43,088 nucleotides of DNA. Origin: an uncultured Alphaproteobacteria bacterium (GTDB taxonomy: Bacteria; Pseudomonadota; Alphaproteobacteria; Rhodobacterales; Rhodobacteraceae). Of this stretch, positions 13,939-28,237 are shown piece after piece; positions within the stretch are counted from its first letter, which is position 1; each line of letters begins with the position of its first letter. The stretch lies in contig CACBNQ010000010.1 in assembly GCA_902540655.1 (NCBI GenBank), positions 1-43,088 of the forward strand, read 5' to 3'. Below the pieces are notes generated by a model. That model did not search any database. It was given only the letters and a program-made list of their open reading frames with translations, and had not been told where the DNA came from. A program made the translations under genes and the position numbers.

Positions 13939-14013
13939 TGGGGTGTAGCCAAGCGGTAAGGCAGCGGGTTTTGATCCCGTGTACCGTAGGTTCGAATCCT
14001 ACCACCCCAGCCA
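13939..14013 (+). tRNA. tRNA-Gln (anticodon UUG)
   Basis: The 75 nt fold as a cloverleaf. The acceptor TGGGGTG pairs with CACCCCA, followed by discriminator G and an encoded CCA (14011-14013). The anticodon stem GCGGG/CCCGT encloses the loop TTTTGAT with anticodon TTG at 13971-13973, which reads CAA (Gln). The T arm is GTAGG-TTCGAAT-CCTAC. This gene is the anchor of the downstream accessory array: partial copies of its 3' part recur at 19125, 20834 and 22679, with decayed ones further on. Confidence 0.97.
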
Positions 14014-14027
14014 CTTTTAATAAACAG

Positions 14028-14061
14028 CTGTAGGTAATAATTTAAGGGCTATCTGTAGGTA
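14028..14061. repeat. Short direct repeats just 3' of the tRNA
   Basis: CTGTAGGTA occurs at 14028-14036 and again at 14053-14061, 25 bp apart, immediately after the tRNA. Paired short repeats beside a tRNA-borne crossover site are typical of integrase arm-type sites. The function is inferred. Confidence 0.45.
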
Positions 14062-14107
14062 TGGGAGTTTTTTGTATTAGGTTGGTGATTGGACAAAAGT
14101 TTTGCTG

Positions 14108-14131
14108 TGACAACACTTTGACAACACTTTG
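14108..14131. repeat. Tandem TGACAACACTT repeat (putative recombinase arm site A)
   Basis: GACAACACTTT is present twice in tandem (14109-14119 and 14120-14130), with an 11-bp period close to one helical turn. The same motif recurs in tandem at 20715 and 25082 and singly at 27646, each near a tRNA-Gln-like junction. A role as an integrase arm site is inferred. A -35 promoter box (TTGACA) is the alternative, but the tandem form and linkage to junctions argue against it. Confidence 0.5.
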
Positions 14132-14215
14132 CAACTCCGCGGAGGATGTTACATCAGGGAGCATATAATTACTTTTTCTAGTTTTGTTTGATTTGCTTAT
14201 TCAAGGCTTTTAGCA

Positions 14216-14581
14216 ATGCGAATAATTTTTTCTTCTCCTTTTTCATATATTCATCTCTTACTCTTTGCTGTTCCATTGATGCAGGAGGTTCAGAATGTAT
14301 ATCTGAAACGACATGGAAAGAAGGAGGGTTCCAGACGATGGTCGATTATTACATATGGCAAATTTGATGAATGGGATGTCAGAAACTATTCACTGGAACT
14401 AGCAAATTGTGCAGAGGATGATGTGCCTGACATGATTGATAAATGGTACAAACCTGATGAAGTTACTTTCGAAGACCTTTGGGAAATGGGTTGGGACGGT
14501 GACATTTCAAAGTGGAGGGATGCTAAGATGTATGACTTTAATTCTGGGCAGTTAATAAAGAGAGAGGAATATGAGGATTAA
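14216..14581 (+). CDS. Hypothetical small protein of the first cassette
   Basis: The frame encodes up to 121 residues. I do not recognise the family. From about residue 22 it is hydrophilic and looks genuinely coding, with tryptophan-rich, acidic stretches such as FEDLWEMGWDGDISKW. The first 21 residues are hydrophobic and could be read-through of upstream sequence. The ATG at 14216 has AAGG nine nt upstream, while the ATG at 14279 gives a 100-residue protein but lacks an RBS. It is followed by a good hairpin terminator. It sits just inside the tRNA-Gln island. Confidence 0.55.
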   Translation: MRIIFSSPFSYIHLLLFAVPLMQEVQNVYLKRHGKKEGSRRWSIITYGKFDEWDVRNYSLELANCAEDDVPDMIDKWYKPDEVTFEDLWEMGWDGDISKWRDAKMYDFNSGQLIKREEYED

Positions 14582-14609
14582 AATCTACTAACTTCTTTTA
14601 GATAAAGGG

Positions 14610-14639
14610 GGGTAGGCCAAAACCCCTGCCCTTCTTTTT
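14610..14639 (+). terminator. Rho-independent terminator
   Basis: GGGTAGG (14610-14616) pairs with CCTGCCC (14625-14631) around an 8-nt loop, with one G-T wobble, and is followed by TTCTTTTT. It lies 28 nt after the stop of the small + strand gene, so it probably ends that transcript. Confidence 0.65.
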
Positions 14640-14744
14640 GCAAGGGATAGTGGTGGCACATTTTTTCGCTATGAAGCAATTTAGCAAACAGAATTCCAAC
14701 TCAATTCATGTGTCTGATATAAATAAAGTTTCCAATAAAGTTTA

Positions 14745-15656
14745 TTATTCCGATGCTAATACTTTAAACTCAAAACCGCCAAGACCATATCTGGGAATAT
14801 AGTGAGTTCCCCCATTTTTTGTGGTTTCCATAGAAAAGGTATCTTCCAATCTAAACCCAACATCCAAATTAGATGTTTTTGGCGTGATACTTACAGCAGT
14901 ATTGAATTTTTGTATTCCCAAAAAATAACTCGCTGTGCCAAAAGAACCATAGTTACCTGGCGTCCCCGTATTTATTGTCTCATCGGCTTTAAGTAAATAA
15001 ACAGACCAAGTTGTCGACGCCGTTGTTCCTGTTTCATAATTATCAAAACGGCCTCCACTAGCAGTACTCCACACCGCGTTTTGGTTGGCAGTATGTGTCC
15101 CTATAGTTGTCGGTTCGTCAGCGCCACATTCAGCTATCCACGTAGATCTTTGAGCGAAACTCAAACCTACGGTCGTCGTTTCACCATCTAAAGTCCAGCA
15201 CCACTCTCCAGTTCCTGTTTTACCGGACCTCGCTGGTGAGAATTTCTTTTTCACACTAAAGCCTATATTATTTTTTATCAATATCGCAGCATGAGTGTAA
15301 TTTCCTTCTGTAATAGTGACATCGTTCATGAGGTTAGCTGATGATGTAGTCGTAATTTTTTTCGACTCACCTGTACTAGATGAGAATAAGGATGAGCACG
15401 CTGTCCTAAAGTTGGCAATAGTTGGTTCTGAGGTGCATAAGCCAATAAAATGCAAAATAATAGTCATACTATCGGGCGTTAGATTACATGCGGTTGATGC
15501 TCCACTGGAGTCGTCCGTGTAAGTGATAGTACCATCTGCATTTGTGTAATTGCTACATAGAAGTTGGGCATGTCCTTTATCGAAAATGAAAAACCCTGAT
15601 AAAAAAATTAATACAAAGATAAACTTTAAAAGAGAAATTCTTGGATTAATAGCCAC
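14745..15656 (-). CDS. Secreted hypothetical protein paired with the inverse autotransporter
   Basis: This 303-residue protein has a clear signal peptide (basic start, hydrophobic stretch to about residue 25, then an FDKGHAQ-type cleavage region). The mature part is rich in Thr, Ser, Gly and Asn and predicted to be beta-rich, as in many surface proteins. I do not recognise a domain. Its start overlaps the end of the upstream beta-barrel gene by 31 nt, so they are translated together. It may be exported to, or assembled with, the barrel, but that is inference. Confidence 0.75.
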   Translation of the reverse strand: MAINPRISLLKFIFVLIFLSGFFIFDKGHAQLLCSNYTNADGTITYTDDSSGASTACNLTPDSMTIILHFIGLCTSEPTIANFRTACSSLFSSSTGESKKITTTSSANLMNDVTITEGNYTHAAILIKNNIGFSVKKKFSPARSGKTGTGEWCWTLDGETTTVGLSFAQRSTWIAECGADEPTTIGTHTANQNAVWSTASGGRFDNYETGTTASTTWSVYLLKADETINTGTPGNYGSFGTASYFLGIQKFNTAVSITPKTSNLDVGFRLEDTFSMETTKNGGTHYIPRYGLGGFEFKVLASE

Positions 15657-16609
15657 TTACCGTCACTCCTAGTTTGATTGATTTTTTTCATAATTCTATT
15701 CTCACGCTGAACAGGTTTATACAACTCCGACCTTACTGATTTTAATTTAAAGGTAAAATCTCTATCAGCTTTACTATCTAAAGTGGACGTTTTAGCGCCA
15801 AGAGGAATAGAGTAGTTAAGTGCAATTACGCCGACAGCATCCTTTGATTCCTTTTTTTGTTGTGCAACAGTGAGTGTTAGATTTTTTGCTATTTCTGCAG
15901 AAATTCCTAATTCTTCATTGTTTGTTTTGTAACCACTATCATCTGTCCAATAGCTCTTTTCAAAATAAATATCAGCATAGGGTATTTTGCCAGTAAACTT
16001 CACGTCATAACCATCTAGTGCCGTTTCATCGACACCCTTGTAACTAATTGTTCCTGATTGAGCATCATATGAATTGGCTCTTACATCAAGCAGCGAAGTA
16101 ATAAGCTCGGCTCCAAAGCCAAGACGTCTGTGTGCGGAGTCCAATTCATAGTCAAAAAATGTGTTGGCGCCTAATATAGTAGTATCGGCATTGAAAATAT
16201 AGCGCGCACCAATACCAATATTCACAGTATTACGCCCATCAAAATTAGATAGTGAGGTTTGATTGAAGAAGAAGGAATTTGGTGTTTCGTACAATCTATA
16301 AACCGCCATTAACTCAGTAAGAGCAGAGGAGCCGTTTCTTAAACCAAAACTGTCACTACCAATGTTGAGATTTAAGTGTGTGAAGTTGGTGCTACTTTCT
16401 ATTTGTCGTTCTGTCTTATCAATCTTAGAATTAATAAGCCCAAAGGAATAGCGAGATAGGTAACTACGAATGCTATTACTCTGGTTTTCGCTCTGTGCTA
16501 ATTCTTTTGCTGCACTCGCTATAGATGCTGTTGCAGAGTTATCCACCTCGGCAACAGCTTGGGAAAATATGAAAACAGCTAAAAAAATTGTATGAACGAC
16601 AATCTTCAT
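15626..16609 (-). CDS. Inverse autotransporter (intimin/invasin-type) beta-barrel, no passenger
   Basis: This 327-residue protein has a signal peptide (about residues 1-20), a linker helix, then an amphipathic beta-strand domain. Inverse-autotransporter features are visible: GARYIFNADTTILGANTFFD, then a YELDSAHRRLGFGAEL stretch and repeated GYDVKFTGKIPYADIYFE-type strands. The barrel ends around residue 309 (PVQRENRIMKK), and only about 18 residues follow. Normal intimins and invasins continue into large Ig-like passengers, so this is a barrel-only form or a truncation. It is upstream of, and overlaps, a secreted protein gene. Confidence 0.8.
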   Translation of the reverse strand: MKIVVHTIFLAVFIFSQAVAEVDNSATASIASAAKELAQSENQSNSIRSYLSRYSFGLINSKIDKTERQIESSTNFTHLNLNIGSDSFGLRNGSSALTELMAVYRLYETPNSFFFNQTSLSNFDGRNTVNIGIGARYIFNADTTILGANTFFDYELDSAHRRLGFGAELITSLLDVRANSYDAQSGTISYKGVDETALDGYDVKFTGKIPYADIYFEKSYWTDDSGYKTNNEELGISAEIAKNLTLTVAQQKKESKDAVGVIALNYSIPLGAKTSTLDSKADRDFTFKLKSVRSELYKPVQRENRIMKKINQTRSDGKWLLIQEFLF

Positions 16610-16786
16610 TGGGGACTCTCACACTCTTCAATGCCATTAATACAAATTATGACGTTGGAAAAAATATAAATATTTACTACCAGTTTTTGGTGCCAATTTT
16701 TACTTTCTTTATTTACTAAATTTTTATTGTAAATTTTTGTCAAATGTTTAGCTTTTTTGTCATTAAATTATCTTTAAGTTGCTAAA

Positions 16787-17155
16787 ATGAACTATAAAAA
16801 CAAAGCAAGAAGACTTTTCGAAACTTTAATTCAAAACTCTACCTCCAGCAGATTTAAACAGTTTTTCTACAGATCACGTTCAACAGTTCTTGTGACCCTA
16901 TTAATTGCATCAGCAAAAGATGGTGAACAATATTCTTTAGAAAATATATTGGAACGAATACCAAGGAAATTGGTCAGTAGAACCTCAGTAAAAAATATTT
17001 TGGATGAAGCGGTGACACAAGAATTTTATTTTAAGGCCCTCGATGATAAAGATAATCGTAGACGGGTATATTCAATAAACTCCAAATACGAAGAAGAAAT
17101 TATTGGTTTAATGGCTCGATACCAAGATATTTTCGGAGAATTTGGGCAGACATAG
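16787..17155 (+). CDS. MarR-like winged-helix protein
   Basis: This 122-residue basic protein has a winged-helix layout. A helix-turn-helix occupies about residues 50-79 (SLENILERIPRKLVSRTSVK), followed by a wing with DDKDNRRRVYSI, the arrangement typical of MarR-type regulators. It is divergent from the inverse autotransporter gene across a 177-bp AT-rich gap, so it may control that gene or itself. No dimerisation detail can be read. The fold call is moderately sure; the target is a guess. Confidence 0.65.
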   Translation: MNYKNKARRLFETLIQNSTSSRFKQFFYRSRSTVLVTLLIASAKDGEQYSLENILERIPRKLVSRTSVKNILDEAVTQEFYFKALDDKDNRRRVYSINSKYEEEIIGLMARYQDIFGEFGQT

Positions 17156-17360
17156 AACCGATGGTAAATAGTTTCTAGCGTCTCTGAGGCCTTCTTTTAA
17201 TAGTACCTAGTGATGCTACGTTAGTAACATTGTAAATAATTTATAAGTTTTGAATAGAGTTTTATAGAGAGTTATCTGAAACTTGGGATTGCTATTTCAA
17301 GTATCTAGCTTGCTATTTACATAAAAAATTTCCAAGCTATTTTTTGTCAGGAGAAAACAT

Positions 17361-19100
17361 ATGATGAAAATTATCAAGACACTAGGGATAGCCTTATTTA
17401 TATTGTTGCAAAGCATGGCAGCGAACTCTAATTCATACGTTCGAGGAAGCCAATATATGCTCAATCAATTAGGTTATGCAGCCGGAACGGAAGACGGGAT
17501 AAAAGGAAAAAATACAATAGAGGCATTAACTAAATATTATGCCGATAATAATAAAGTTTTTGATGGAATCATTGATGACAATGAATTGATAGATTTAAAA
17601 GCTTCAGTGATAAGTTTAGGAATTCCTAAAATCGAGGAAACGAAAAATAAGTTAAAGGTACACTTTTTTGGAAACTTTATTTCAAATCAATCGAAAATAA
17701 TACCGGACTCAAACTCACCATATTTTTTACCCTCTGATCTATTTCAAAGAAAAAATGCCTCTGAAAATAGAGAGGTATTCTACATAAATCATATGGCATT
17801 TGGAAATTTGAATAATGATGGTCGCCAAGATTTACTTATGTCTTATGAGATGGAAGTTTGTCCTGATGGATATACCCTTACATCTATAGGTGTCCCGCTG
17901 TGCGAGCTAAAAAGTGACAATGACCGTTACTTAAATTTTACTGCATTTTCGGTAAGTATAAATGAACGAGACGAAACCATTATCAATGATTTTGAGCACA
18001 ATACTTCTATGGGTAGGAATTGTCAGAGACCGATACTAGCCGATTTTAACAATGACGGAATAGATGACGTATATTGCCCAAGTGCTTTTGGCCACACTTA
18101 CAAAGGAAAGTTTTATCATGGGGGAGCAGATATAGTTTTCATTTCTAACGACAAAGGTTGGAAGCATGTAAAGGAAAAGGGAGCTTTCGTAGATAAAAAA
18201 ACAGGGCTATACCAAGGGTTTTCACATGGCGTCACGGCGAATGATATTGATCATGATGGGGACTTAGATGTGGTAACTCCCCATATTAAATGGGAAAATA
18301 CAAAAGGCGGGGGCAAGATATATTGCCATTTTAATGATGGTGCTGGGAACTTTACTGTAAAACAGTGTGCTGACCAATTTGCTTTTGCCGTGACAAGCGG
18401 TGATTATAATGGTGATGGAATAGTTGATTTAATAGCTAGTGGAGGTTGGTTTGAAAAAAAATTGTATTCACATAATAGTAGTAAGAAACACAATAATACC
18501 GTAGTTCTGTTTGGGGATGGTAAAGGAAGTTTTAAAACAGGTTGGAAAAAAATTCCACCAGCGTATGACATTTATGGATCGGGATATTTACTATCACACA
18601 TCGTAGATCTAGTATCATGGGACTTTGATGGAGATGGGGATCTAGATATAGCGGGAACCACCGTAGGCCCACTTTACGCTGGAGGAACTCACACTATTTG
18701 GTCTAATAATGGGGAGGGCAAATTTACCATCGCAGATCAAATTCCGATGATTTCAGGAAAAAAGAGCTGGACTTCTGTAAAAGCCTGGAAGAAAGATATT
18801 AAGTCTGAAAGTAATAGATGGAATTCATATTGCGGTAGCACCAAGTTAATTGATGTAAATAACGACGGTATGATGGATATGTACTGCGATACTCCTACAC
18901 AGGATAAACATGGTGGCTGGATCTTTCTAAACATGGGAGGACTTCAGTTTAAAAAGATTTCTCCGTTTAACGCATGGAGTAAAGACTGGACCATTTACTA
19001 TACAGGCCCAACAGGTTATTCATTTCAAGATTTTGAGGGTTACTCTGATCCAGATCTCTTTGAAACTCATTGGGAATATAAACCATTCTTTGAAAAATAA
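17361..19100 (+). CDS. Secreted FG-GAP/VCBS repeat protein with N-terminal peptidoglycan-binding-like domain
   Basis: This 579-residue protein has a signal peptide (residues 1-23). Next comes a PG_binding_1-like segment (about 27-60) with the pattern YMLNQLGYAAGTEDGIKGKN. The rest is a beta-propeller of FG-GAP repeats with calcium-loop motifs such as NLNNDGRQD, DFNNDGIDD, DIDHDGDLD, DYNGDGIVD, DFDGDGDLD and DVNNDGMMD. AGGAG lies 10 nt before the ATG. It is probably a cell-surface or periplasmic, calcium-binding propeller. It ends 24 nt before a tRNA-Gln 3'-end copy, so it is the last gene of its module. Confidence 0.8.
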   Translation: MMKIIKTLGIALFILLQSMAANSNSYVRGSQYMLNQLGYAAGTEDGIKGKNTIEALTKYYADNNKVFDGIIDDNELIDLKASVISLGIPKIEETKNKLKVHFFGNFISNQSKIIPDSNSPYFLPSDLFQRKNASENREVFYINHMAFGNLNNDGRQDLLMSYEMEVCPDGYTLTSIGVPLCELKSDNDRYLNFTAFSVSINERDETIINDFEHNTSMGRNCQRPILADFNNDGIDDVYCPSAFGHTYKGKFYHGGADIVFISNDKGWKHVKEKGAFVDKKTGLYQGFSHGVTANDIDHDGDLDVVTPHIKWENTKGGGKIYCHFNDGAGNFTVKQCADQFAFAVTSGDYNGDGIVDLIASGGWFEKKLYSHNSSKKHNNTVVLFGDGKGSFKTGWKKIPPAYDIYGSGYLLSHIVDLVSWDFDGDGDLDIAGTTVGPLYAGGTHTIWSNNGEGKFTIADQIPMISGKKSWTSVKAWKKDIKSESNRWNSYCGSTKLIDVNNDGMMDMYCDTPTQDKHGGWIFLNMGGLQFKKISPFNAWSKDWTIYYTGPTGYSFQDFEGYSDPDLFETHWEYKPFFEK

Positions 19101-19124
19101 TTTCAAGAGTTATCATTATAGAGC

Positions 19125-19153
19125 CTTAGGTTCTAGTCCCACCACCCCAGCCA
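19125..19153 (+). repeat. Partial tRNA-Gln 3'-end copy 1 (att-like)
   Basis: The 29 nt match tRNA-Gln positions 13985-14013 at 25 sites, including an unbroken ACCACCCCAGCCA at the end. It covers only the T arm and acceptor 3' strand and cannot form a tRNA. It marks the right end of the first cassette. Confidence 0.8.
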
Positions 19154-19206
19154 ATTACTAAAATTAGCCTTGTGGTTTTGTAGCTTTTGTCTTGATAAGC
19201 GTATCA

Positions 19207-20568
19207 TTAATATTGCTTCCAACCTACTGAGCAGTGAAATGGCATAGAGTATATCAGGTTAGATTTATCAGAAATTATTTTCAGCTCATCATCCAGTTCA
19301 ATTTTCTCATCTTCATTCAAAGTTTGTCGCGTACGTCTCAGAAACCACTCAAATAAATTTTTGTTTTTGCCTCTGGGCACAGCTACCATGCTCGGAAAGT
19401 TAATCGATTCATGAAGTCCGTTTTTGCGCATCTGGTCGTAAAGTGATTTATCAGCAATGCCATAAGTACTTTTTAATTGAAGGGGAATATTTAACTTATG
19501 CTTTAATTCGCCAGTTATATCGAAGTTAAACCACTGAGGCATGTCAATAGCTCTTACAATTATTCCTATAGGTCCTCCTGGTTTGACTACCCTCACTATT
19601 TCTTTTATTGCTTTATCTGCATCACATTCCTCCAAGACAGTTACGGAATAAACAGCATCAAAAAAGTTATCAGGAAAGGGTATATCGATGGCGTCACTGT
19701 AAGCGAAGTTTAATTCACCAGCTTCAGAAAAATTCTTCTCTGTAAATTCTTTCTCATCAATATAATTATTAACATACAAATCTTCATTTTCAGCGATTTG
19801 GATAGCTCCATTCAACAAGTAAGTATTTATATCAACCCCGGTCACAGAAAGGTCTGATCTTAAGTTTAAAACTTGACGACATAGAGCACCAGTCCCACAA
19901 CCCAATTCTAAAATTTTTCCATTTGGTGTAATATTCATTATTGATACCAATGATGAAATCATAGTTTGATAAGTTGGTAGCGCTGCACGACTTTCCAAAA
20001 CTGGAATAAATCCTAAATTAGGCCCACTTAAAGTGATTACTGTAAATTTTTCTGCCAGTAATGGTATTATAGGTTTCCATTGTGCTGCCGACAGAGTGAA
20101 TGGGAAAAGAATTAGAGGAGGTCCACATCCTTCAATTGAAAAGTAAGTGTCTTTGAATTTTCCGCCCACTTTGGATTTTGCAAATGCATTTTTTTTTGGA
20201 CCCATAGATCCAAAAAAGTTCGAAAGACTTTCGAATAATTGTTTGGGGTGATCTATGGAAATATCTGACCACGGAAGTATTTCATAGTTTTTTATTTCAT
20301 AGGTACTTGCCTTTTTTAAATCCTTTTTAAAATCATTTGCTGCCGTCTTGGTAGGTCCATGCTCACTATTTATCATCAATATTCTTTCAGCAATAATTTC
20401 AAAAGCTGAGCTATTTGTTTCATTTGGGCCAACTAGGGCTAACCCAGTAACTTTTTCTGGATAAACTTTACAAAAATCCTCGATATCAGCAGGGTATTGC
20501 GCGGCAAGGAAAGCATCGTTTAATTCCAGATGGTCAAATAGGTCAGCAATGTCACTTGACTTACTCAT
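19207..20568 (-). CDS. Alpha/beta-hydrolase-like plus SAM methyltransferase protein, probably 5'-truncated
   Basis: The 453 residues have three parts. Residues 1-50 resemble the middle of an alpha/beta hydrolase (helix, strand, VTGLALVGP) with a degenerate nucleophile elbow, AQYPA in place of GxSxG. Residues about 140-190 resemble a hydrolase N-terminus (PLILFPFTLSAAQW). Residues about 210-345 are a class I methyltransferase with motif I ILELGCGTGA and acidic VTGVDIN, plus SDAIDIPFPDNFFDAVYS. The frame stays open upstream without a start or RBS, and the first hydrolase lacks its N-terminal half. This suggests loss of the 5' end near the adjacent junction repeats. Substrate unknown. Confidence 0.65.
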   Translation of the reverse strand: MSKSSDIADLFDHLELNDAFLAAQYPADIEDFCKVYPEKVTGLALVGPNETNSSAFEIIAERILMINSEHGPTKTAANDFKKDLKKASTYEIKNYEILPWSDISIDHPKQLFESLSNFFGSMGPKKNAFAKSKVGGKFKDTYFSIEGCGPPLILFPFTLSAAQWKPIIPLLAEKFTVITLSGPNLGFIPVLESRAALPTYQTMISSLVSIMNITPNGKILELGCGTGALCRQVLNLRSDLSVTGVDINTYLLNGAIQIAENEDLYVNNYIDEKEFTEKNFSEAGELNFAYSDAIDIPFPDNFFDAVYSVTVLEECDADKAIKEIVRVVKPGGPIGIIVRAIDMPQWFNFDITGELKHKLNIPLQLKSTYGIADKSLYDQMRKNGLHESINFPSMVAVPRGKNKNLFEWFLRRTRQTLNEDEKIELDDELKIISDKSNLIYSMPFHCSVGWKQY

Positions 20569-20713
20569 GGGCGATAATCTGTATAATCGAGAGCATGCCT
20601 GACCAGCGAAACAAGATCAGGTAATTTATATCTATAGAAAATAAATTTAAGAACGCCATCGACTGTTCCTTGATTTAGTTCACTTTAGAAACTATTACGG
20701 AAATGCTAGTTGT

Positions 20714-20825
20714 TGACAACACTTTTGACAACAGTTTTCGTGATTTTCCTGATAACTCATAAGAAGCATGAGAAGGATAAGAACTATTTTAAAGGGTTAT
20801 GAGAATCCTGATAACTCCTGATAAC
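20714..20825. repeat. Putative recombinase arm region B
   Basis: This is the fullest copy of the junction-linked region. It has tandem TTGACAACACTT/TTGACAACAG (12-bp period), then three copies of CTGATAAC (near 20749, 20812 and 20820) and a spaced inverted repeat CTCATAA/TTATGAG. It leads directly into the 49-bp tRNA-Gln copy. A clearly related version lies at 25081-25199 in front of the decayed tRNA copy. Its 24-mer at 20723-20746 is repeated exactly at 27642-27665. The 351-bp gap 20569-20919 holds only this and the tRNA copy. Confidence 0.6.
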
Positions 20826-20833
20826 AATATCCA

Positions 20834-20882
20834 CGGGTTTTGATCCCGTGTACCGTAGGTTCGAATCCTACCACCCCAGCCA
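20834..20882 (+). repeat. Perfect 49-bp tRNA-Gln 3'-half copy 2 (att site)
   Basis: All 49 nt are identical to 13965-14013, from the anticodon stem through the CCA end. The identity starts at the anticodon arm, the usual crossover zone for tRNA-targeting tyrosine recombinases. It is the best-preserved junction and therefore probably the most recent. It lies just downstream of arm region B. Confidence 0.92.
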
Positions 20883-20919
20883 TCTCCTAAAAGAAGATAA
20901 CTTTGCTGTCTCCATAAAA

Positions 20920-21861
20920 TCAATTAAATTTAATTACAAGTCGGCCTCTGACCCCGCCACCTTCAAATCGTTTATGTGCTTCCGACACTTGAGACGGACT
21001 AAATGTATCGGCTACCCTCAATGAAATTTTGTTTGCGTTTACAAGCTTTCTTAAATCATCTAATTTTTCGTACATGCAATCTTGAGTTCTTACCCATGTT
21101 TGCGTAAAATTTATATCACGCTCACCTGTCCCTTGATAACCTCTTACTGCGGTAAAAGAGCCTCCATTTTTGACTGCAGCAACTGCTTTTTTATTTAATA
21201 AAGCGCCATCTGCTAAGCCGTCAACGCCCTCGGGAAACCGTTCTAATATATGTTCAATGAATTCTTCTCCTCTTGGAAGCGATAGATCTGCACCAAGTGA
21301 TTTAATTAAATTTTGGTCTTTTTCTGACGTATCTGCTATCACAAATAAACCTAAAGTTTTTGCAATTTGGATCATGTAACCTCCGTAGGCTCCTGCAGAG
21401 CCAGTAACTGCTAACTTATCGCCTGAATTTAAGTTCAAAAGTTCTAGAGAAAGCTTCGCCGTTAATCCATTCATTGGTAAAGTACATGCTTCTTCAAAAC
21501 TGACCCCCTTGGGAATTGGAACCACTGCTCCTGATTTTAGAGCAATTTGTTCGCGGTATGCCCCATGTTGACCATTTGGTATGACCATTGCCATGACCGC
21601 GTCGCCTTTTTTGAGATGAGTTTTAATGTTTTTTCCAATCTCCACTACTTTCCCAGAAATATCCATTCCCGGAACATACGGAGGATCATAAGGTTTTTGT
21701 CGTTCTGCTATACCTCCATTACGAGCTAAGATATCTGTGGGGTTTAAAGCTGCGCAAAACACCTGCACTAGTATTTCATCCGCTTCAGGTTTTACCTCAG
21801 GCACCTCAATAAGCTCTAGCACTTCAGGTCCGCCATGCTTCATTAAGCCAATCGCACGCAT
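20920..21861 (-). CDS. Zinc-less MDR family NADPH:quinone oxidoreductase-like protein
   Basis: This 313-residue member of the medium-chain dehydrogenase/reductase superfamily has a GroES-like N-terminal domain ending with the pattern NPTDILARNG and VPGMDISGKVVEIG, then a nucleotide-binding domain with VTGSAGAYGGYMIQIAK. Catalytic zinc ligands are absent, as in quinone oxidoreductases. It ends with GRLVIKF, the usual terminus. It is divergent from the DUF924 gene, with 62 bp between starts, in the third cassette. Substrate cannot be inferred. Confidence 0.85.
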   Translation of the reverse strand: MRAIGLMKHGGPEVLELIEVPEVKPEADEILVQVFCAALNPTDILARNGGIAERQKPYDPPYVPGMDISGKVVEIGKNIKTHLKKGDAVMAMVIPNGQHGAYREQIALKSGAVVPIPKGVSFEEACTLPMNGLTAKLSLELLNLNSGDKLAVTGSAGAYGGYMIQIAKTLGLFVIADTSEKDQNLIKSLGADLSLPRGEEFIEHILERFPEGVDGLADGALLNKKAVAAVKNGGSFTAVRGYQGTGERDINFTQTWVRTQDCMYEKLDDLRKLVNANKISLRVADTFSPSQVSEAHKRFEGGGVRGRLVIKFN

Positions 21862-21923
21862 CTTTACTCCTTTGATTACGATAGAAAGTTGATTTATGTT
21901 ACACTATTAAAAAAGAATTTTAA

Positions 21924-22676
21924 ATGATGTTACCAGAAGATCTTACCCCTGAGCAATTTAGTAGAAAACCCGCAGTCCTGAAAGCTCTTACTAATCCTCG
22001 TTCTCCAAGTAGTGTTTTGAATTATATGTGTGGCTGCGATATTAATAATGCTAATGATAGAAAAAGACTTTTTTACGATGAAACAGTGGAACCACTATTA
22101 GGCATATGGTTTAGGAGTGGAACCGCTTTAGACGATATTTGCAAGCCATTCTCATCTGTTATTCGCGAATTGAAAGCTGATCCACAAACCCTAATTGAAG
22201 ATGAATGGTTTACCCTTGAAGGCCAGGTTGCTAGAGTATTGCTAGCAGACCAACTATCTCGCTCATGTTTTCGAGGGACGGCTGAAGCTTTTTCGTATGA
22301 CTACATAGGACGCGAGATCGTTCGAGACCTAGTTAGTAAAGAGAAAGTCGAACAAACTTTAAAATTGCCTCCAGCACTACTGTATTTACTTCCCTGGGCT
22401 TTGGCCCATTCAGAAGAAATAGTCGACCTTGTTCGCGCATGCGAAATAATTGACATGGCAATCGGTGCCTATCCTAATTTCAGTCTATTTGAAGGAAGAA
22501 ATAAAAAAGCGGTAGATCAACATAGGCAGGTTTTAGAAAAATTTGGGCGTTACCCGCAAAGAAATTCAGAGTTTGGAAGAGCTAATACCCCTGAAGAAGA
22601 AAAATGGCTCAATGATAAAGAGAATTTACCAATTTGGGCTGGTGGTAATCTTTCTTTTGATCAAAAAATTAGATAA
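21924..22676 (+). CDS. DUF924 family protein
   Basis: This is a 250-residue all-helical protein. The DUF924 signatures are present: VLLADQLSRSCFRGTAEAF, then AHSEE in the middle and QHRQVLEKFGRYPQRN near the C-terminus. The biochemical role of the family is not established. The start at 21924 has an ATG-ATG pair; the second ATG is equally possible. Its stop codon is only 2 nt before a tRNA-Gln 3'-end copy, so the gene ends exactly at the cassette border. Confidence 0.85.
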   Translation: MMLPEDLTPEQFSRKPAVLKALTNPRSPSSVLNYMCGCDINNANDRKRLFYDETVEPLLGIWFRSGTALDDICKPFSSVIRELKADPQTLIEDEWFTLEGQVARVLLADQLSRSCFRGTAEAFSYDYIGREIVRDLVSKEKVEQTLKLPPALLYLLPWALAHSEEIVDLVRACEIIDMAIGAYPNFSLFEGRNKKAVDQHRQVLEKFGRYPQRNSEFGRANTPEEEKWLNDKENLPIWAGGNLSFDQKIR

Positions 22677-22678
22677 GA

Positions 22679-22709
22679 ACCGTAGGTTCGAATCCTACCA
22701 CCCCGGCCA
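22679..22709 (+). repeat. Partial tRNA-Gln 3'-end copy 3 (att-like)
   Basis: The 31 nt match tRNA positions 13983-14013 with one change (A to G before GCCA). It covers the T arm and acceptor strand only. There is no TGACAAC arm upstream; coding sequence of the DUF924 gene abuts it directly. Confidence 0.88.
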
Positions 22710-22771
22710 TTCCATTTATTGCTAGCATTCACGGTAAGTGATCAATTTTCAAAGCAAAATCAAATATAAAT

Positions 22772-23479
22772 TCAATTGGCCATTTTTATGAAAATGTCTC
22801 CCATACCTCCCCTGACCTCTTTGAGTGGTGTGTTATTTCTAAGTGGACAGTAGCTTCCTGTTATAACTTCTCTATTTATCTTTTCAATGTCCTTAGGTGA
22901 ACAGATTTTGCTTTCGAATAGTACTCCAACTACAAGCCTTCCATTTATTTCAGTCACTCTTTTTTTATTTAGAGAGGTGCCAACACAAATGGACTCTCTA
23001 TCGACCTCTTCAGGAAAATCTGGTTTTTCACAGGGGTTCTTGATTGTTAATACGTTGATTAATTCCGTCCTATCACCAAATGTTTTTTCAAGGGCCTGCA
23101 CCTGAACATATTTCATCACATCACAAGAGCAGGGCCAACAACATCTGTAAAGCGAGCCGCAAATTAATTCTTCATCATGACCTCTGACAGAAACAAATTC
23201 AGGTTGAGAACCGGGCCGTACAAGTGACCCAGAGACACTACAATACATCTTATTCTTCTCAAAAAACTCATCTTTAGAATTTGAATTATCTAAAATATAT
23301 TTAAAAAATAAAGCACCGCCAGCATTTCTGTTTTTGTTTGGAAATATTTTCCCCCAATCTGCTCGTAACTCCTCATAATAACGTATCAATTTTAAACTAT
23401 CGGGACTCCGAGACTCTCCTAAGCTTATTGGGGGAATTATTAAGCACATGACAAAAAGTGTGAAAATATACCGAGTCAT
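22772..23479 (-). CDS. Secreted cysteine-rich hypothetical protein
   Basis: From the ATG at 23479 the protein has about 235 residues, with a signal peptide (FTLFVMCLIIPPISLGES). The mature part has about ten cysteines, including the cluster CGSLYRCCWPCSCDVMKY, plus CSVSG, NPCEKPD, SICVGTS, SKICSPKD and GSYCPLRN. Disulfides or metal binding are likely. I do not recognise a family. The chosen start is 1 nt after the stop of the upstream FG-GAP gene, implying coupled translation; an alternative start at 23509 overlaps that gene. Confidence 0.7.
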   Translation of the reverse strand: MTRYIFTLFVMCLIIPPISLGESRSPDSLKLIRYYEELRADWGKIFPNKNRNAGGALFFKYILDNSNSKDEFFEKNKMYCSVSGSLVRPGSQPEFVSVRGHDEELICGSLYRCCWPCSCDVMKYVQVQALEKTFGDRTELINVLTIKNPCEKPDFPEEVDRESICVGTSLNKKRVTEINGRLVVGVLFESKICSPKDIEKINREVITGSYCPLRNNTPLKEVRGGMGDIFIKMAN

Positions 23480-23480
23480 A

Positions 23481-24986
23481 TCAATTTGTTTTACCTTGGT
23501 TGAAAACATATTGATGGTTCAGCTTTTCAATTTTGTATTTTGATTTTTGACCATCAGTCCAATTTATCTGAATGTGTTCAATCTCTTCATTTTTACGGAT
23601 TCCAAAATGGGCTACTGGTTCCATCTGGCATAAATACCCAGAGCCTGCATCTATAGTTTTAGCGTGGGTTCTGAAATTTGTCTTAAGTGTTACGGTAGCA
23701 CCTCTTGCTGGCGCATCGTAAGAGTTTCTAGGTTCTATTCTTAAATATTGAAAATCGTCTTTAACATTAGCTGAAAAAAGGCTTAATGGTTCAGGAGCAC
23801 TTTCACCATGAGCAATCAGTAGCTCCAAAATTCCGTCACCATTTAAATCCGCTACTGCTCCACCAGTACCCAGACCGGTCTTTTCTAGAGCATTCGTCAA
23901 TTCCAACTGTTCGAGTTTATTGTTATCTAGAATTCTAAATAATTTATTTGGTTGACCGATATTGTTCAAAAATATCTCATCAAAACCATCATTATCGAAA
24001 TCAGCGGATATAACGGTTCTAATTTTTGAAGGTTGTCTAAAATTTAAAGACGCTGTATCGACAAATGTGTTGTTTGCATGAGTGTATATTCTGTGGAAAC
24101 CATTCCAATTTCCTGTGATAAGGTCTAAGCTTCCATTATAACCAATATCTGATAGAGCCGTTCCTCTCCCATTTTGGAGTGTGTCATCGATACCGTACTC
24201 TAAAGCTTTGTCAGTGTATGTGCCGCCCTTATTTATCAGTAAAAAATTAGGTCCGCGTTCATTCGCAGCAAAAATATCGACTTTTCCTGATAGAATATTC
24301 CCTGCTACGACAGCACGACCACCGGTCGTAGAATTTATTCCGAGTGAAGGTGCGATGTCTTGGATAATATCAGCTTCTAATTCGTAAAATCTTGTTGGAC
24401 CCCCATAGTTGGAGACATAAATTCCATAATTACCGTTGCCATGTCTATCAACGCAAGCCACCGACCTACCCGCCGTAAGGTTCAAGTTTGCCTGATTTTT
24501 TCTAAAACCGAAAATATCGTAAATCGTTTTATCCACGTCTATTAGACGATCGGAATATTTTTTCGTTCCACTATAAGTGTCGGTATTCAAGAAATAAATT
24601 TCTTCATATCCATCCTGATCGACATCACAAGCGACAACTCCAATCGATGACCTTTTTTCATCAGCAAATAGTTCACTAGAATTAATATTTGTATATGAAC
24701 CATTCTCATAGCTCAGTGCGAGATTAGGATACCGAAACCCTGTAACTATAAACTCCATTTTTCCATCATTGTTGAAATCTGTTACAGCCACGCCATAAGA
24801 CAATCTCGGTACGTTATTTTCTATTTTATCGGTAATGTTTTGAAAAAACTGAGCATTAGCCGTAAGATTGTTTTCTGATACACATAAACAGACAGCAAAA
24901 ATAGCTGTAACAAATGTGCTTTTTTTTACCAAGACAATATATGCGGCAACTTTTTTAAACAGTTTTTTTAAATCCGTCTTATTCAT
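23481..24986 (-). CDS. Secreted CRTAC1-like FG-GAP protein with ASPIC/UnbV C-terminal domain
   Basis: This 501-residue protein has an N-terminal hydrophobic export segment after a basic stretch (about residues 18-45). FG-GAP repeats with calcium-loop motifs follow: DFNNDGKME, DVDQDGYEE, DFDNDGFDE and DLNGDGILE. The C-terminal domain (about residues 410-500) matches ASPIC/UnbV in pattern, with ARGATVTLKT, DAGSGYLCQMEPVAHFG and INWTDGQKSKY. Such proteins are extracellular calcium-binding propellers of unclear role. It is followed by, and probably co-translated with, the Cys-rich secreted protein. Confidence 0.8.
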   Translation of the reverse strand: MNKTDLKKLFKKVAAYIVLVKKSTFVTAIFAVCLCVSENNLTANAQFFQNITDKIENNVPRLSYGVAVTDFNNDGKMEFIVTGFRYPNLALSYENGSYTNINSSELFADEKRSSIGVVACDVDQDGYEEIYFLNTDTYSGTKKYSDRLIDVDKTIYDIFGFRKNQANLNLTAGRSVACVDRHGNGNYGIYVSNYGGPTRFYELEADIIQDIAPSLGINSTTGGRAVVAGNILSGKVDIFAANERGPNFLLINKGGTYTDKALEYGIDDTLQNGRGTALSDIGYNGSLDLITGNWNGFHRIYTHANNTFVDTASLNFRQPSKIRTVISADFDNDGFDEIFLNNIGQPNKLFRILDNNKLEQLELTNALEKTGLGTGGAVADLNGDGILELLIAHGESAPEPLSLFSANVKDDFQYLRIEPRNSYDAPARGATVTLKTNFRTHAKTIDAGSGYLCQMEPVAHFGIRKNEEIEHIQINWTDGQKSKYKIEKLNHQYVFNQGKTN

Positions 24987-25080
24987 TCATCATTATACAG
25001 GGAAACTTTTTTAATCTTATTTTCGGGACGAGGGCGAAGGCCCCTCGGGTGCAAAGTACTAGATAGACTAAAAAGGAAAA

Positions 25081-25199
25081 TTGACAACAAAATTGACAAG
25101 AGATTTAAAGATTTTCCCATAACGCACATGAAGAATGATAAGGATAAGAGCTTTTTTGAAAAGGTTATGAGGGACTTGCGGCTTCTGATAACCATATCT
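25081..25199. repeat. Putative recombinase arm region C
   Basis: Tandem TTGACAACAAAA/TTGACAAG (12-bp period) is followed by a stretch aligning with arm region B. Shared landmarks are GGATAAGA, GGTTATGAG and CTGATAACCATATC just before the tRNA-like copy (CTGATAACAATATC in region B). The common order of these elements supports shared ancestry with the region before copy 2. Confidence 0.55.
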
Positions 25200-25200
25200 A

Positions 25201-25236
25201 CGGATTTTTATCTTGTGCACCGTTGCTTAAAATCTT
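25201..25236 (+). repeat. Decayed tRNA-Gln 3'-half copy 4
   Basis: Starting at CGG, the sequence aligns with tRNA-Gln 13965 onward; 18 of the first 23 positions match, and matching continues more weakly for about a dozen further nt. It occupies the same place relative to arm region C as copy 2 does to region B. It is probably the oldest clear junction. Confidence 0.6.
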
Positions 25237-25420: not shown

Positions 25421-26203
25421 TTGATTTTAATCAAAAAAAACGAAACCTTGAAAGTGGCATCAGTATTTACCGTAAAATTACTTCCAAAAGATATCCAACA
25501 ACTAGCTCTATTCCTGGACGTCGATGGCACACTATATGAGATTGAGAATAGTCCAAACTTGATTAAACCTTGTTTTAAATTGCAAAAAAAACTGCAAACC
25601 ATCCGTAATAGACTTGGAGGTGCGTTAGCGCTTATTAGTGGTAGATCATTAGACGATCTAGATAGGATTTTCGAGAACGATAAAATTTCTGTTGCTGGAA
25701 ACCACGGAGCACAATTGAGAGATACACTCCGACTTAAGGAGTACCAAGCCGAGTCTGGAAAAATAAAGGGAATTGCTTATAAGATTAGTGAATTACTTAA
25801 TGGCCAAAAAAATATTGAGATTGAAAACAAGGGTTCAAATTTAACTGTTCATTTTCGAAATTCAACGATCGACAGGAAAGAGATTAATAAAATAATGTTC
25901 GAGATTGTAAAGTATGAACCAAAATTAATTTTACTTGAAGGAAAGGAAGTTTTGGAAGTTAAACCTCTGAGCCACAATAAGGGAACGGCAATTTCATACT
26001 ATATGAAAACTAAACCTTTTATTAAGCGAAGACCGATTTTTATAGGTGATGATATAAGCGATGAAGATGGTTTTGAAACTGTTAACAAGATAGGCGGCTG
26101 GTCAGTTCGTGTTGGAAATTATAAAAGAAGTAAAGCCAACTTCTTTTTACCTAATGTTAAATCCGTTCACGAAATAATGGAGCAGCTTCTAAAATCAAGG
26201 TAA
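25421..26203 (+). CDS. otsB: Trehalose-6-phosphate phosphatase
   Basis: This 260-residue HAD-superfamily enzyme has the nucleophile motif LFLDVDGTLYE, motif II ALISGRSLDDL, VAGNHGAQLR, KPLSHNKGTAI with the conserved Lys, and the acidic motif FIGDDISDEDGF. It removes phosphate from trehalose 6-phosphate. There is no ATG before the first motif; a TTG at 25421 with AAGG about 13 nt upstream is the most upstream start after an in-frame stop. otsA follows after 15 nt. The pair lies between the decayed junction at 25201 and a further arm-like repeat at 27642, so it may be cassette cargo. Confidence 0.93.
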   Translation: MILIKKNETLKVASVFTVKLLPKDIQQLALFLDVDGTLYEIENSPNLIKPCFKLQKKLQTIRNRLGGALALISGRSLDDLDRIFENDKISVAGNHGAQLRDTLRLKEYQAESGKIKGIAYKISELLNGQKNIEIENKGSNLTVHFRNSTIDRKEINKIMFEIVKYEPKLILLEGKEVLEVKPLSHNKGTAISYYMKTKPFIKRRPIFIGDDISDEDGFETVNKIGGWSVRVGNYKRSKANFFLPNVKSVHEIMEQLLKSR

Positions 26204-26218
26204 ATCAATTGGAGAGTT

Positions 26219-27601
26219 ATGAGTAGAGTAGTCGTTATTTCTAACAGAGTTATGCTTCCCAAGGAAAAGAAACCTGAGGCATCTGGCGGTCTTGCAGTTG
26301 CATTATTTGATACGCTGCAGGAGACAAACGGTCTTTGGTTTGGTTGGAGTGGCGCAGTCACTACAGATAAGAATATTAAACCACTTGTTAAAAAGGATGA
26401 AGGAATTACTTATGCCATTGTTGATTTACCAAAAAAAGATTATGAAAATTACTACAACGGTTATTGTAACGAAGTACTTTGGCCCATTTTTCACTATAGA
26501 TTGGACTTAGTAGATTATTCCAAATTAAAATTCGAGAGTTATAAAAGGGTTAATAAGTCTTTTTCCTTAATGATTAAAAAACTTCTCAATAATGAAGATT
26601 TGATATGGGTTCATGATTATCATTTTTTATTAATTGCTAAAGAGTTGAGAAAGCTCAAATGCACTCAGAAAATAGGATTTTTTTTACATATACCATGGCC
26701 ATCAAAAGAAATTTTGACTGCATTACCTGATCATCGAGAGCTCGTTGATGCTCTATTAGAGTTTGACTTGATAGGCTTTCAAACTAGAAAACATGTACTT
26801 ATCTTTTTAGATTATATCATAAGTGAGCTAGGAGGCTCAGTTGAACCAGATGGATCAATATTTGCTTTAGGGAAAAAGTCTAAAGTAAAACATTTTCCAA
26901 TATCTATAGATACGAACAAAATTATAAAAATATCAGAAGAAACTGATAACTCTCCTCAAGTGAAAAGACTAGTCAAAAGTATTAAAACGGACAAACTAAT
27001 AGTCGGAGTCGATAGGCTAGACTATTCAAAGGGGCTTGAGCTTAGATTCTTGGCATACAATCATCTTCTTACAAATCATAGTGAACACATGAGATCAACA
27101 ACTTTGCTTCAAATAGCCCCGACCTCAAGAGGCTCTGTTTTTCAATACAAAGAAATAAGAAGAAAATTAGAGCTTAGTGCTGGAAAAATAAATAGTGCGT
27201 ATGGTGACTTTGATTGGACGCCAATTAGGTATCTCAATAAAGGATTCCAGCAAAAAAGTCTTATGGGATTTTTTAGAAATAGTAGAATTGGACTAGTAAC
27301 ACCGCTGAGAGACGGAATGAATTTGGTAGCAAAGGAATATATAGCTTCTCAACGCGTGAGTGATCCAGGGGTGCTAATTTTGTCAAGATTTGCAGGCGCA
27401 GCAGAGGAATTTCCCGACGCATTGATTGTGAATCCTCATGATCCGGAGGGAGTAGCAGATGCATTGCATCATGCCTTAAAAATGCCTAAAAAAGAACGCT
27501 TGAGGAGATGGCTTAGTGCTTTTGATCAATTACAATCTTTTAATATAAGTGTATGGAGAACTCACTACATCGAAGCATTACAAACATCAATAATCAAATA
27601 G
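26219..27601 (+). CDS. otsA: Trehalose-6-phosphate synthase
   Basis: This 460-residue GT20 glycosyltransferase transfers glucose from a nucleotide sugar to glucose 6-phosphate. Motifs are intact: VVVISNRV with the ASGGLAVAL loop, WPIFHYR, IWVHDYHFLLI, FFLHIPWPS, VGVDRLDYSKGL, LLQIAPTSRG and RDGMNLVAKEY. GGAGAG lies 2 nt before the ATG at 26219. With otsB it forms a complete pathway for trehalose, an osmolyte and stress protectant. Confidence 0.95.
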   Translation: MSRVVVISNRVMLPKEKKPEASGGLAVALFDTLQETNGLWFGWSGAVTTDKNIKPLVKKDEGITYAIVDLPKKDYENYYNGYCNEVLWPIFHYRLDLVDYSKLKFESYKRVNKSFSLMIKKLLNNEDLIWVHDYHFLLIAKELRKLKCTQKIGFFLHIPWPSKEILTALPDHRELVDALLEFDLIGFQTRKHVLIFLDYIISELGGSVEPDGSIFALGKKSKVKHFPISIDTNKIIKISEETDNSPQVKRLVKSIKTDKLIVGVDRLDYSKGLELRFLAYNHLLTNHSEHMRSTTLLQIAPTSRGSVFQYKEIRRKLELSAGKINSAYGDFDWTPIRYLNKGFQQKSLMGFFRNSRIGLVTPLRDGMNLVAKEYIASQRVSDPGVLILSRFAGAAEEFPDALIVNPHDPEGVADALHHALKMPKKERLRRWLSAFDQLQSFNISVWRTHYIEALQTSIIK

Positions 27602-27641: not shown

Positions 27642-27665
27642 TTTTGACAACAGTTTTCGTGATTT
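27642..27665. repeat. 24-bp exact repeat of arm region B (arm D)
   Basis: These 24 nt, containing TTTTGACAACAGTTTTCG, are identical to 20723-20746, and a few flanking positions also agree (CCTGA follows both). It lies 40 nt after otsA. About 90 nt further on, at 27757-27797, there is a very weak tRNA-Gln-like stretch (CAGGGTCTATCCCATGTA) that could be an eroded junction. The repeat is certain; the junction is doubtful. Confidence 0.7.
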
Positions 27666-27822
27666 CCCTGAAAATTATGCACTATAAGAAACTTGGCAAT
27701 TATTTGACTACTTATAAAAAGTTTATATTTATTTCAATTATTATGTGCCAATCTTACAGGGTCTATCCCATGTATATCTGATCGATGATTTTTTACCTAT
27801 TATGAGGTGCAAACCTGAAACT

Positions 27823-28236
27823 TTACTTATACATTTGCGCAATCGTAGGGATCACTCCTCGACGGTTCAGGCTTTGATTAACTGACGATGGGTTCAATAT
27901 CTTTTTTAAATAATCCAATGCATCCTGTGGATCACAATTCCCACACATGAAAATATCAAGTGAAGCAAAATTACGTTCTGGCCAAGTATGTATACTTATG
28001 TGACTTTCAGATAAAACTGTTACACCGCTTACGCCCATTCCTTCACCAAAAGGATGATAGTAGGAATGCAGAATGGTCGCGCCAGCCTTGCGAGCACTTT
28101 CTTCTATTGCTTCTTTTATAAAATCTAAGTCACCCATTTGTTCCACGTCCCAAAAATCAGCAAGTATGTGCCTTCCTGCAAATTGATCGCCTGTTTTTGA
28201 ACATGTTACGAAATAATCGCTATCAAGATGGTTCAT
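27823..28236 (-). CDS. speD: S-adenosylmethionine decarboxylase proenzyme (prokaryotic type)
   Basis: This 137-residue proenzyme carries the self-cleavage motif LSESHISIHTWPE, where Glu-Ser is cut and the Ser becomes the pyruvoyl cofactor, followed 20 residues later by the conserved Cys in DIFMCG. It makes decarboxylated AdoMet, the aminopropyl donor for spermidine. The ATG at 28236 is chosen because AGGAGG precedes it and speE stops 1 nt before; a longer reading from 28305 would run through speE. Last gene of the operon. Confidence 0.93.
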   Translation of the reverse strand: MNHLDSDYFVTCSKTGDQFAGRHILADFWDVEQMGDLDFIKEAIEESARKAGATILHSYYHPFGEGMGVSGVTVLSESHISIHTWPERNFASLDIFMCGNCDPQDALDYLKKILNPSSVNQSLNRRGVIPTIAQMYK

Positions 28237-28237
28237 T

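Follow-up and report, generated by a model that had tools for sequence, protein, structure and literature searches.

A tandem array of integrase-less cassettes at a tRNA-Gln gene in small-genome marine Rhodobacteraceae, probably filled by a rare helper integrase in trans

Introduction

It is still an open question how streamlined ocean bacteria acquire and exchange genes of adaptive value, and the region behind the tRNA-Gln gene of an uncultured Rhodobacteraceae bacterium raises it in a concrete form: what fills a row of short modules that are bounded by copies of the 3' part of one tRNA and carry no recombinase? The window analyzed here is the whole contig CACBNQ010000010.1 (G000:C10; 43,088 bp) of a 1.66-Mb genome that is 72% complete. 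The original prediction, made from this DNA alone, described same-orientation copies of the tRNA-Gln 3' end that divide the region into recombinase-less modules, and a cassette store filled in trans. Upon comparison with related genomes, we found an array of cassettes with shared arms and permuted order, one transfer between genera and, in one relative, an integrase element with the same arms. We consider it probable that this is a tandem array of mobile cassettes at the tRNA-Gln 3' part, filled mostly in trans by the integrase of a rare helper.

Materials and Methods

The genus set comprised 22 genomes including that of the window (58-91% complete). A profile of the array site was built from 32 sites of relatives, none of them from the window's own genome, and was used to scan 23 genus pieces and G054, a genome from another genus of the family. 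Array pieces of 19 genomes were extracted for copy counting, and 200 single-base shuffles of the window provided the chance baseline. The family sample comprised 394 genomes, most of them 2.5-5.5 Mb in size; the family-wide tRNA search scored no more than four candidates in each genome, so arrays in further genera are possible.

Results

The window contains a tandem array of tRNA-Gln 3' copies

The only tRNA gene in the window is tRNA-Gln(ttg), which is followed by the array (Table 1). A repeat search recovered a five-member family of its 3' part at the places named in the original prediction, and BLAST within the 1.66-Mb genome gave E-values of 1.2e-19 for 20834-20882 (49/49), 1.7e-8 for 22679-22709 and 6.9e-4 for 19124-19153. 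The best match in the shuffles was 28/49 for the core and 22/31 for the 3' part, compared with the observed 49/49, 30/31 and 26/31. The profile matched all five places, on the + strand only, and additionally revealed a site at 27642-27704. A chance origin of the repeats was ruled out by the BLAST E-values, the profile E-values and the shuffles, which confirms the predicted copies and their common orientation.

The window copies were of two kinds. Those at 20834 and 25201 were preceded by an arm of approximately 120 bp, and the newly found site consisted of a decayed arm only, by which the array reaches approximately 27.7 kb, beyond both trehalose genes. The copies at 19123 and 22678 comprised the T-arm/acceptor part alone and followed a stop codon. 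The element that kept both arms spans 14014-20882, which means that the 19123 copy sits within it. The predicted division into modules was correct in that the repeats do bound cassettes; two of the four named copies are incomplete attachment sites, some borders lie elsewhere and the array is longer than proposed. The absence of a recombinase from the modules was borne out: the tyrosine recombinase family PF00589 had no match on the window contig (the two matches in the genome were on C48 and C1), and no recombinase was found by a Pfam scan of the ten open reading frames (ORFs) of at least 120 aa at 14216-24986 or of the two trehalose genes. PADLOC analysis of ten proteins returned one match, to a methyltransferase domain.

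The same cassettes recur in different orders across the genus

The tRNA query matched 20 of the 22 genomes, with a full-length copy in 15; the lowest-scoring matches were tRNA-Ser. Outside the tRNA, 73 copies were found in the arrays of 19 of the 22 genomes, 20 of which were 49/49 and 11 arm-less, and all 115 profile matches, including those of G054, were on the + strand. The kdsA gene preceded the tRNA in 14 of 15 tRNA contigs, the contig of G001 beginning too near the tRNA, and a block of S-adenosylmethionine decarboxylase and spermidine synthase genes formed the right flank wherever a contig extended that far. The locus thus combines variable cassettes, a conserved tRNA, partial tRNA repeats and fixed flanks, as expected of an additive flexible genomic island.

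Between the flanks, the genomes had the same cassettes in differing order, mostly at a gene-sized spacing of about 0.7-10 kb between sites. M1 (7316-7319 bp; LysR, ABC transporter and SnoaL proteins), a label also given to two further modules whose left ends are alike, including the integrase element described below, was complete in four genomes with four different right neighbors. M4 (1729-1730 bp) likewise had four right neighbors in four genomes and M6 (1827-1828 bp) three in three, M7 (1006-1009 bp) was present in three genomes, and M0 had seven different left neighbors over nine arrays, in four of which it stood last before the right flank. An occupied and empty series was also evident: M5 directly follows the tRNA in G013, M7 lies between the two in G018 and M1 does so in G010, with each junction right after GCCA. 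The comparison of the kdsA-tRNA-Gln to speD interval suggested by the original prediction therefore yielded occupied and empty sites and permuted cassettes, and relatives do not share one gene content in one order.

Where the 7319-bp M1 stands first, the identity per 100-bp bin was 0.83-0.97 before the tRNA, on the side of kdsA, and stepped up to 0.96-1.00 at the tRNA and beyond (4/4 pairs). The whole cassette was 98.9-99.5% identical in all six pairs of the four genomes, and in all pairs for which a flank value existed, the cassette genes were more conserved than the flanks (7/7, 7/7, 7/7, 6/6, 4/4 and 4/4). The conservation of the trehalose-phosphate synthase c16 was level with that of the flanks (above in 13/26 pairs). 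The farther out a site ranked from the tRNA, the lower was its score (Spearman -0.48, n=59, nominal p=1.2e-4), in a sample of non-independent sites that includes partial matches and one first-rank site scored low owing to a contig end. Judged by these comparisons of sequence, the modules are mobile cassettes that are gained precisely at the tRNA and have recently spread between species.

A scan of 84,980 species with the arm-core pattern, which may omit records close to the window, returned 22 stretches, from uncultured Alphaproteobacteria records with AG- names and one metagenome-assembled genome (MAG) titled Rickettsiales SP3058. We take the AG- isolate names to denote single cells; some record titles say MAG. 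In the part of PMC12416821 that concerns them, AG- names belong to GORG-tropics single cells. Two slightly differing copies of a block (permease, ABC ATPase, c101 and the EamA-type c38), each ending in an array site, were seen at L098 and L104 of PBGQ01000036.1, seemingly on one contig; this record is a MAG, so the duplicated block is possibly a chimera.

Cassettes share an attachment end with a probable crossover in the anticodon loop

Unrelated cassettes had approximately 120 bp in common before the core, running from TTGACAAC repeats approximately 121 nt upstream to CTGATAAC repeats and ACAATATCCA. The far motif (at most 10 mismatches) was found at 49 of 77 non-tRNA sites, four of G054 included, and the near motif (at most 5 mismatches) at 53 of the 77, compared with 3 of 1532 background windows. 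A right-arm query gave 89 matches in 19 of the 22 genomes, 82 of them on array contigs. The seven others comprised four beside array-type sites or cargo (three on G013:C15 and one on G016:C28), matches on G018:C11 and G017:C42 without either, and the remainder on G002:C12. The piece on G018 (C11:1994-2061) is 68 bp long, 91% identical to the right arm and located approximately 0.8 kb from a tRNA-Ser, outside the tRNA-Gln array.

A left arm, TTTGACAACACTTTGACAAC, was present 92-94 nt past the core in six modules (at most 4 mismatches) and in none of 1532 background windows. When one mismatch at most was allowed, the motif occurred at four places in the 22 genomes, all 92-94 nt after tRNA-Gln and including that of the window and that of the G003 integrase element, and a control pattern gave none. 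A tRNA core flanked by two arms at set distances has the layout of an attP site for a tyrosine integrase. A perfect left arm was also found 92 nt after the own tRNA of G218, a congener of G054.

The tRNA of G054 differs from that of the window in the anticodon arm. One array site of G054 is of the g1 type in its arm and in the base at tRNA position 30, followed by G054-type bases at positions 36, 38 and 39. The cassette closed by this hybrid core is 1298 bp long, and its dehydrogenase shares 93% identity with the g1 relative, compared with 56% for KdsA. The hybrid points to an exchange between positions 30 and 36 and to a cassette that crossed genera; on this basis, strand exchange most likely takes place in the anticodon loop.

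Two further observations concern the sister genus. A second arm type, TGACAATACGGTGACAATAC, precedes cores in G054 (oriented positions 20556 and 23979) and in G218 (L154), which suggests a parallel cassette family with another integrase specificity. Additionally, G054:C10:25558-25599, approximately 2.5 kb away on the 5' side of the tRNA, is a 100% copy of tRNA-Gln positions 1-42, which gives the impression of a tRNA split at the anticodon arm.

One relative carries an integrase element with the same arms

The original prediction proposed a search of relatives for a tyrosine recombinase gene next to the same tRNA-Gln with the same arms, and one was found, in G003. The first module after the tRNA encodes the tyrosine integrase P0001 (384 aa; PF00589 E=3.1e-22, phrog_1 E=1.9e-65), an excisionase-like HTH_17 gene with weak phrog matches (E of about 1e-5 to 1e-4) and a replication-initiation-like gene (phrog_391 E=4.8e-15). 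Inspection by eye showed the tyrosine integrase family motifs R, HxxR, H and Y to be intact in P0001, and distant solved relatives align there. The left arm of the element had 0 mismatches. A 665-aa protein with both flagellin domains, N and C, is also encoded on the element (G003:C8, L044:133-2130), which is odd for the cargo of a satellite-like element.

Several other sources of a recombinase were considered. We did not find an integrase of the P0001 type to be widespread at either genus or family level: the 21 remaining genus genomes had none or only weak matches (E of 1e-5 or worse, Xer-sized frames), and the search of the family sample described below gave none at E<=1e-30. Relatives of P0001 in phage and plasmid records were all below 60% identity, the ten best of each at approximately 26-31%, and pattern-based searches of viral contigs returned no phage or satellite record with the attachment end or the integrase. 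An integrase at tRNA-Ser as the mover was ruled out in part, as no arm motif was found in the examined G000 stretches, yet one arm-like piece is present in G018. In the genome of the window, tRNA-Ser(tga) at G000:C1 20267-20356 is followed approximately 0.9 kb downstream by an integrase match (21227-21655, in a 433-aa frame), a separate island hotspot, and by coordinates such pairs also occur in G004, G016, G019 and G021.

Arm-less sites and irregular borders

The 11 sites among 73 without an arm and anticodon half recur in relatives; five follow an FG-GAP gene and six a DUF924 gene. The FG-GAP type looks like a relic carried along, with a methyltransferase cassette next in four of five cases. 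Five genomes have no site between the DUF924 gene and the following cassette, the two being fused. The junction sequences ruled out that the 22678 site arose by crossing over at TTTTGATC within the DUF924 gene. Finally, the left border of M20 (G011 and G021) lies inside the start of a dehydrogenase gene.

Features of the window

The coordinates of the array and its cargo are collected in Table 1. In the right flank, at 27823-29585, a spermidine synthase gene lies between two S-adenosylmethionine decarboxylase genes.

Table 1. Array sites, cargo genes and adjoining features of the 43,088-bp window.
Feature	Position	Strand	Basis and remarks
tRNA-Gln(ttg), integration target	13939..14013	+	ARAGORN; site core 13965-14013 = tRNA positions 27-75; profile E=3e-15
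Left arm TGTGACAACACTTTGACAAC	14106..14125	+	92 nt past tRNA, same place as in G003 integrase element
Cargo ORF, 121 aa	14216..14581	+	No Pfam family
Cargo ORF, 303 aa	14745..15656	-	No Pfam family
Cargo: inverse autotransporter beta-domain protein	15626..16609	-	PF11924, E=7.5e-32
Cargo ORF, 122 aa	16787..17155	+	No Pfam family
Cargo: FG-GAP repeat protein, cluster c19	17361..19100	+	Pfam scan
Arm-less copy of tRNA 3' part	19123..19153	+	Profile E=0.0091; methyltransferase cassette next in 4/5 genomes
Cargo: methyltransferase-domain protein, c36	19207..20568	-	Pfam scan
Right arm	20711..20833	+	TTGACAAC repeats approximately 121 nt before core, CTGATAAC repeats adjoining core; common to unrelated cassettes; profile match 20711-20882, E=9.5e-64
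attR core	20834..20882	+	49/49 to tRNA
Cargo: zinc-type alcohol dehydrogenase family, c15	20920..21861	-	Pfam; family also single-gene cassette in G054
Cargo: DUF924 protein, c1	21924..22676	+	Pfam scan
Arm-less copy, about tRNA positions 45-75	22678..22709	+	Directly after DUF924 stop codon; profile E=1.9e-6
Cargo ORF c7, 245 aa	22772..23509	-	No Pfam family
Cargo: FG-GAP / ASPIC-UnbV protein, c8	23481..24986	-	Pfam scan
Decayed right arm and core	25081..25235	+	Profile E=1.8e-22
Cargo: trehalose-phosphatase, c12	25421..26203	+	Pfam scan
Cargo: glycosyltransferase family 20, trehalose-phosphate synthase type, c16	26219..27601	+	Pfam scan
Decayed right arm, probable distal array end	27642..27704	+	Profile E=7.8e-7; precedes S-adenosylmethionine decarboxylase gene
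S-adenosylmethionine decarboxylase gene, right flank	27823..28305	-	In right-flank block 27823-29585

Discussion

We propose that a complete cassette ends in an attachment end of approximately 170 bp, which would consist of the arm of approximately 120 bp with its TTGACAAC and CTGATAAC repeats and of 49 nt equal to tRNA positions 27-75. A tyrosine integrase would exchange strands in the anticodon loop, the 3' part of the incoming cassette would restore the tRNA, and older cassettes would be displaced outward, so that the array would grow at the tRNA and decay outward. The recombinase would be supplied in trans by a rare satellite-like helper that uses the same tRNA and the same arms, as seen in G003. 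The trans action of a G003-type integrase, a circular intermediate and the direction of growth are the steps that we infer.

Several observations weigh against this proposal. The integrase element was found in only one of the 22 genus genomes, and its right end is incomplete, as the contig stops approximately 55 bp into the right arm. A relative of P0001 was found in 0 of the 394 family genomes at E<=1e-30, a sample that holds no known positive, and no circle or carrier was found, pattern-based searches giving 0 viral contigs with attR patterns or an integrase relative. Most cassettes have no left arm, the six modules mentioned above being the only ones with it within 4 mismatches, and the hybrid core is supported by one base left of the crossover, plus the arm. 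The genes c26, c29 and trehalose-phosphatase were mostly less conserved than the flanks (above in 1/10, 1/10 and 2/32 pairs), with the c26 and c29 clusters seeming to mix paralogues. M0 is followed by other modules in G020 and G003, so the far end is not fixed, and growth with a strictly fixed far end is ruled out. Arm-less sites should not be usable by an arm-dependent integrase, and the six DUF924-type sites precede six different modules in six genomes, which indicates that the site served as a border. A second enzyme that acts at the T-loop may have made this border, or recombination across the 31 nt, and homologous recombination between the repeats of approximately 170 bp may account for some of the shuffling.

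Serial decay and accretion in cis would account for the array by modules that were once complete, lost their integrases and now move only with an intact neighbor. This is the usual account of integrase-less tandem elements in the cited parts of two studies (PMC5704250 and PMC3146451), and it is in line with G003, where an integrase element occupies the same site and has the same arms. However, the window contig has no PF00589 remnant, and M1, M4 and M6 keep a constant length beside different neighbors across species while lacking an integrase, which means that cassettes moved singly in that state; we regard decay in cis as unlikely. Homologous recombination after DNA uptake, with RecA acting on the repeats of approximately 170 bp and on the cargo and no site-specific enzyme involved today, appears slightly less likely still. 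The repeats are long enough for RecA, and the six different modules behind 31-nt arm-less DUF924 ends are not explained by an arm-dependent integrase. In contrast, the identity step of the 7319-bp cassette falls at the tRNA in 4/4 pairs with no tract into kdsA, the arms lie at fixed distances (-121 and +92) that cassettes and integrase element have in common, the G054 site changes type between tRNA positions 30 and 36, and the insertion series at the tRNA end (M5, M7-M5 and M1-M5) is the outcome expected of an integrase.

Chimeras from whole-genome amplification or misassembly at repeats would be conceivable in genomes that resemble amplified single cells or MAGs with many contigs, several of which end within arrays. 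However, 19 of 22 genomes show the array independently, their cassettes agree in length and their older copies are decayed, and a second genus has it as well, which makes an artefact very improbable.

Integrase-mediated filling in trans remains our preferred explanation, and this group of small-genome ocean bacteria swaps integrase-less packages between species, which a rare enzyme element of the same site probably moves. The cargo includes ecological traits, among them sugar-type ABC transport, trehalose synthesis, methyltransferases, an AMP-ligase and amidase/arginase genes. With the gene store, the attachment ends, a candidate enzyme and a crossover point named, a single enzyme and two short DNA sites would suffice to put mobilization in trans to the test; in the part of PMC3146451 that treats it, such mobilization of integrase-less tandem islands is offered only as a hypothesis. 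More tentatively, at somewhat under an even chance in our judgment, the arrays may form a genus-wide, partly cross-genus, integron-like pool, entered at the tRNA anticodon loop, with the recombinase on a rare passing helper and ends of approximately 170 bp by which cassettes are captured, shuffled and lost one by one. If so, the arm-less ends and the M20 border within a gene would be traces of ordinary genes becoming cassettes.

Comparison with known systems

A partial literature search found no prior account of this tRNA-Gln array, and tandem islands at tRNA and tmRNA (transfer-messenger RNA) genes are already known. In cis-mobilizable elements (CIMEs) and tandem accretion, as outlined in PMC5704250, modules flanked by attachment (att) sites and devoid of integration genes lie at the 3' end of a gene, and growth proceeds into a resident att site. 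The window modules are similar in being bounded by related att sites at a gene 3' end and in having no integrase, G003 being the exception among the arrays. In contrast to CIMEs, which are single decayed remnants, we found mostly gene-sized cassettes in long arrays with one attachment end, redistributed singly across the genus.

The ssrA islands of Dehalococcoides, according to the cited part of PMC3146451, are tandem with 3'-end repeats, 16 with and 15 without an integration module; mobilization in cis was proposed, the recombinase is of the serine type, the repeat measures 20 bp and the tmRNA T-loop is the point of insertion. Both systems place tandem elements after one RNA gene, each bounded by a 3'-end repeat. 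As far as that description reaches, the array differs in its target (tRNA-Gln instead of ssrA), its 49-nt tyrosine-integrase-type core with arms, the probable exchange in the anticodon loop and the restriction of the integrase to one genome.

Additive islands at tRNAs are described in the cited sections for Alteromonas (PMC4119200), Actinomarinales (PMC7771536, which also reports cassette exchange between genera) and Methylopumilus, with tRNA-Lys repeats (PMC10872708). These islands and the present array have in common that cassettes are added at a conserved tRNA with partial tRNA repeats. Here, an arm sequence, a probable crossover point and a matching integrase element were additionally identified, none of which we saw in those sections. 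Tycheposons, as mentioned in PMC10872708 and PMC11389934, are elements of 4-200 kb with a tyrosine recombinase. They resemble the array as cargo-bearing elements at tRNA genes of marine bacteria, whereas nearly all modules here are short and without a tyrosine recombinase; judged by those mentions, only the G003 element is tycheposon-like or satellite-like.

The clusters of attC sites lacking integron integrases (CALIN) are integron cassette arrays that need an outside integrase, in the wording of the relevant part of PMC11389934, and are likewise arrays of recombinase-less cassettes. The tRNA 3' parts with arms, the double-stranded core sites and the genes in both orientations set the present array apart from what is stated there for CALIN. 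Within the literature covered by these sources, we saw no genus-wide, almost integrase-free array of gene-sized cassettes that share one attachment end and whose arms recur in an outside integrase element.

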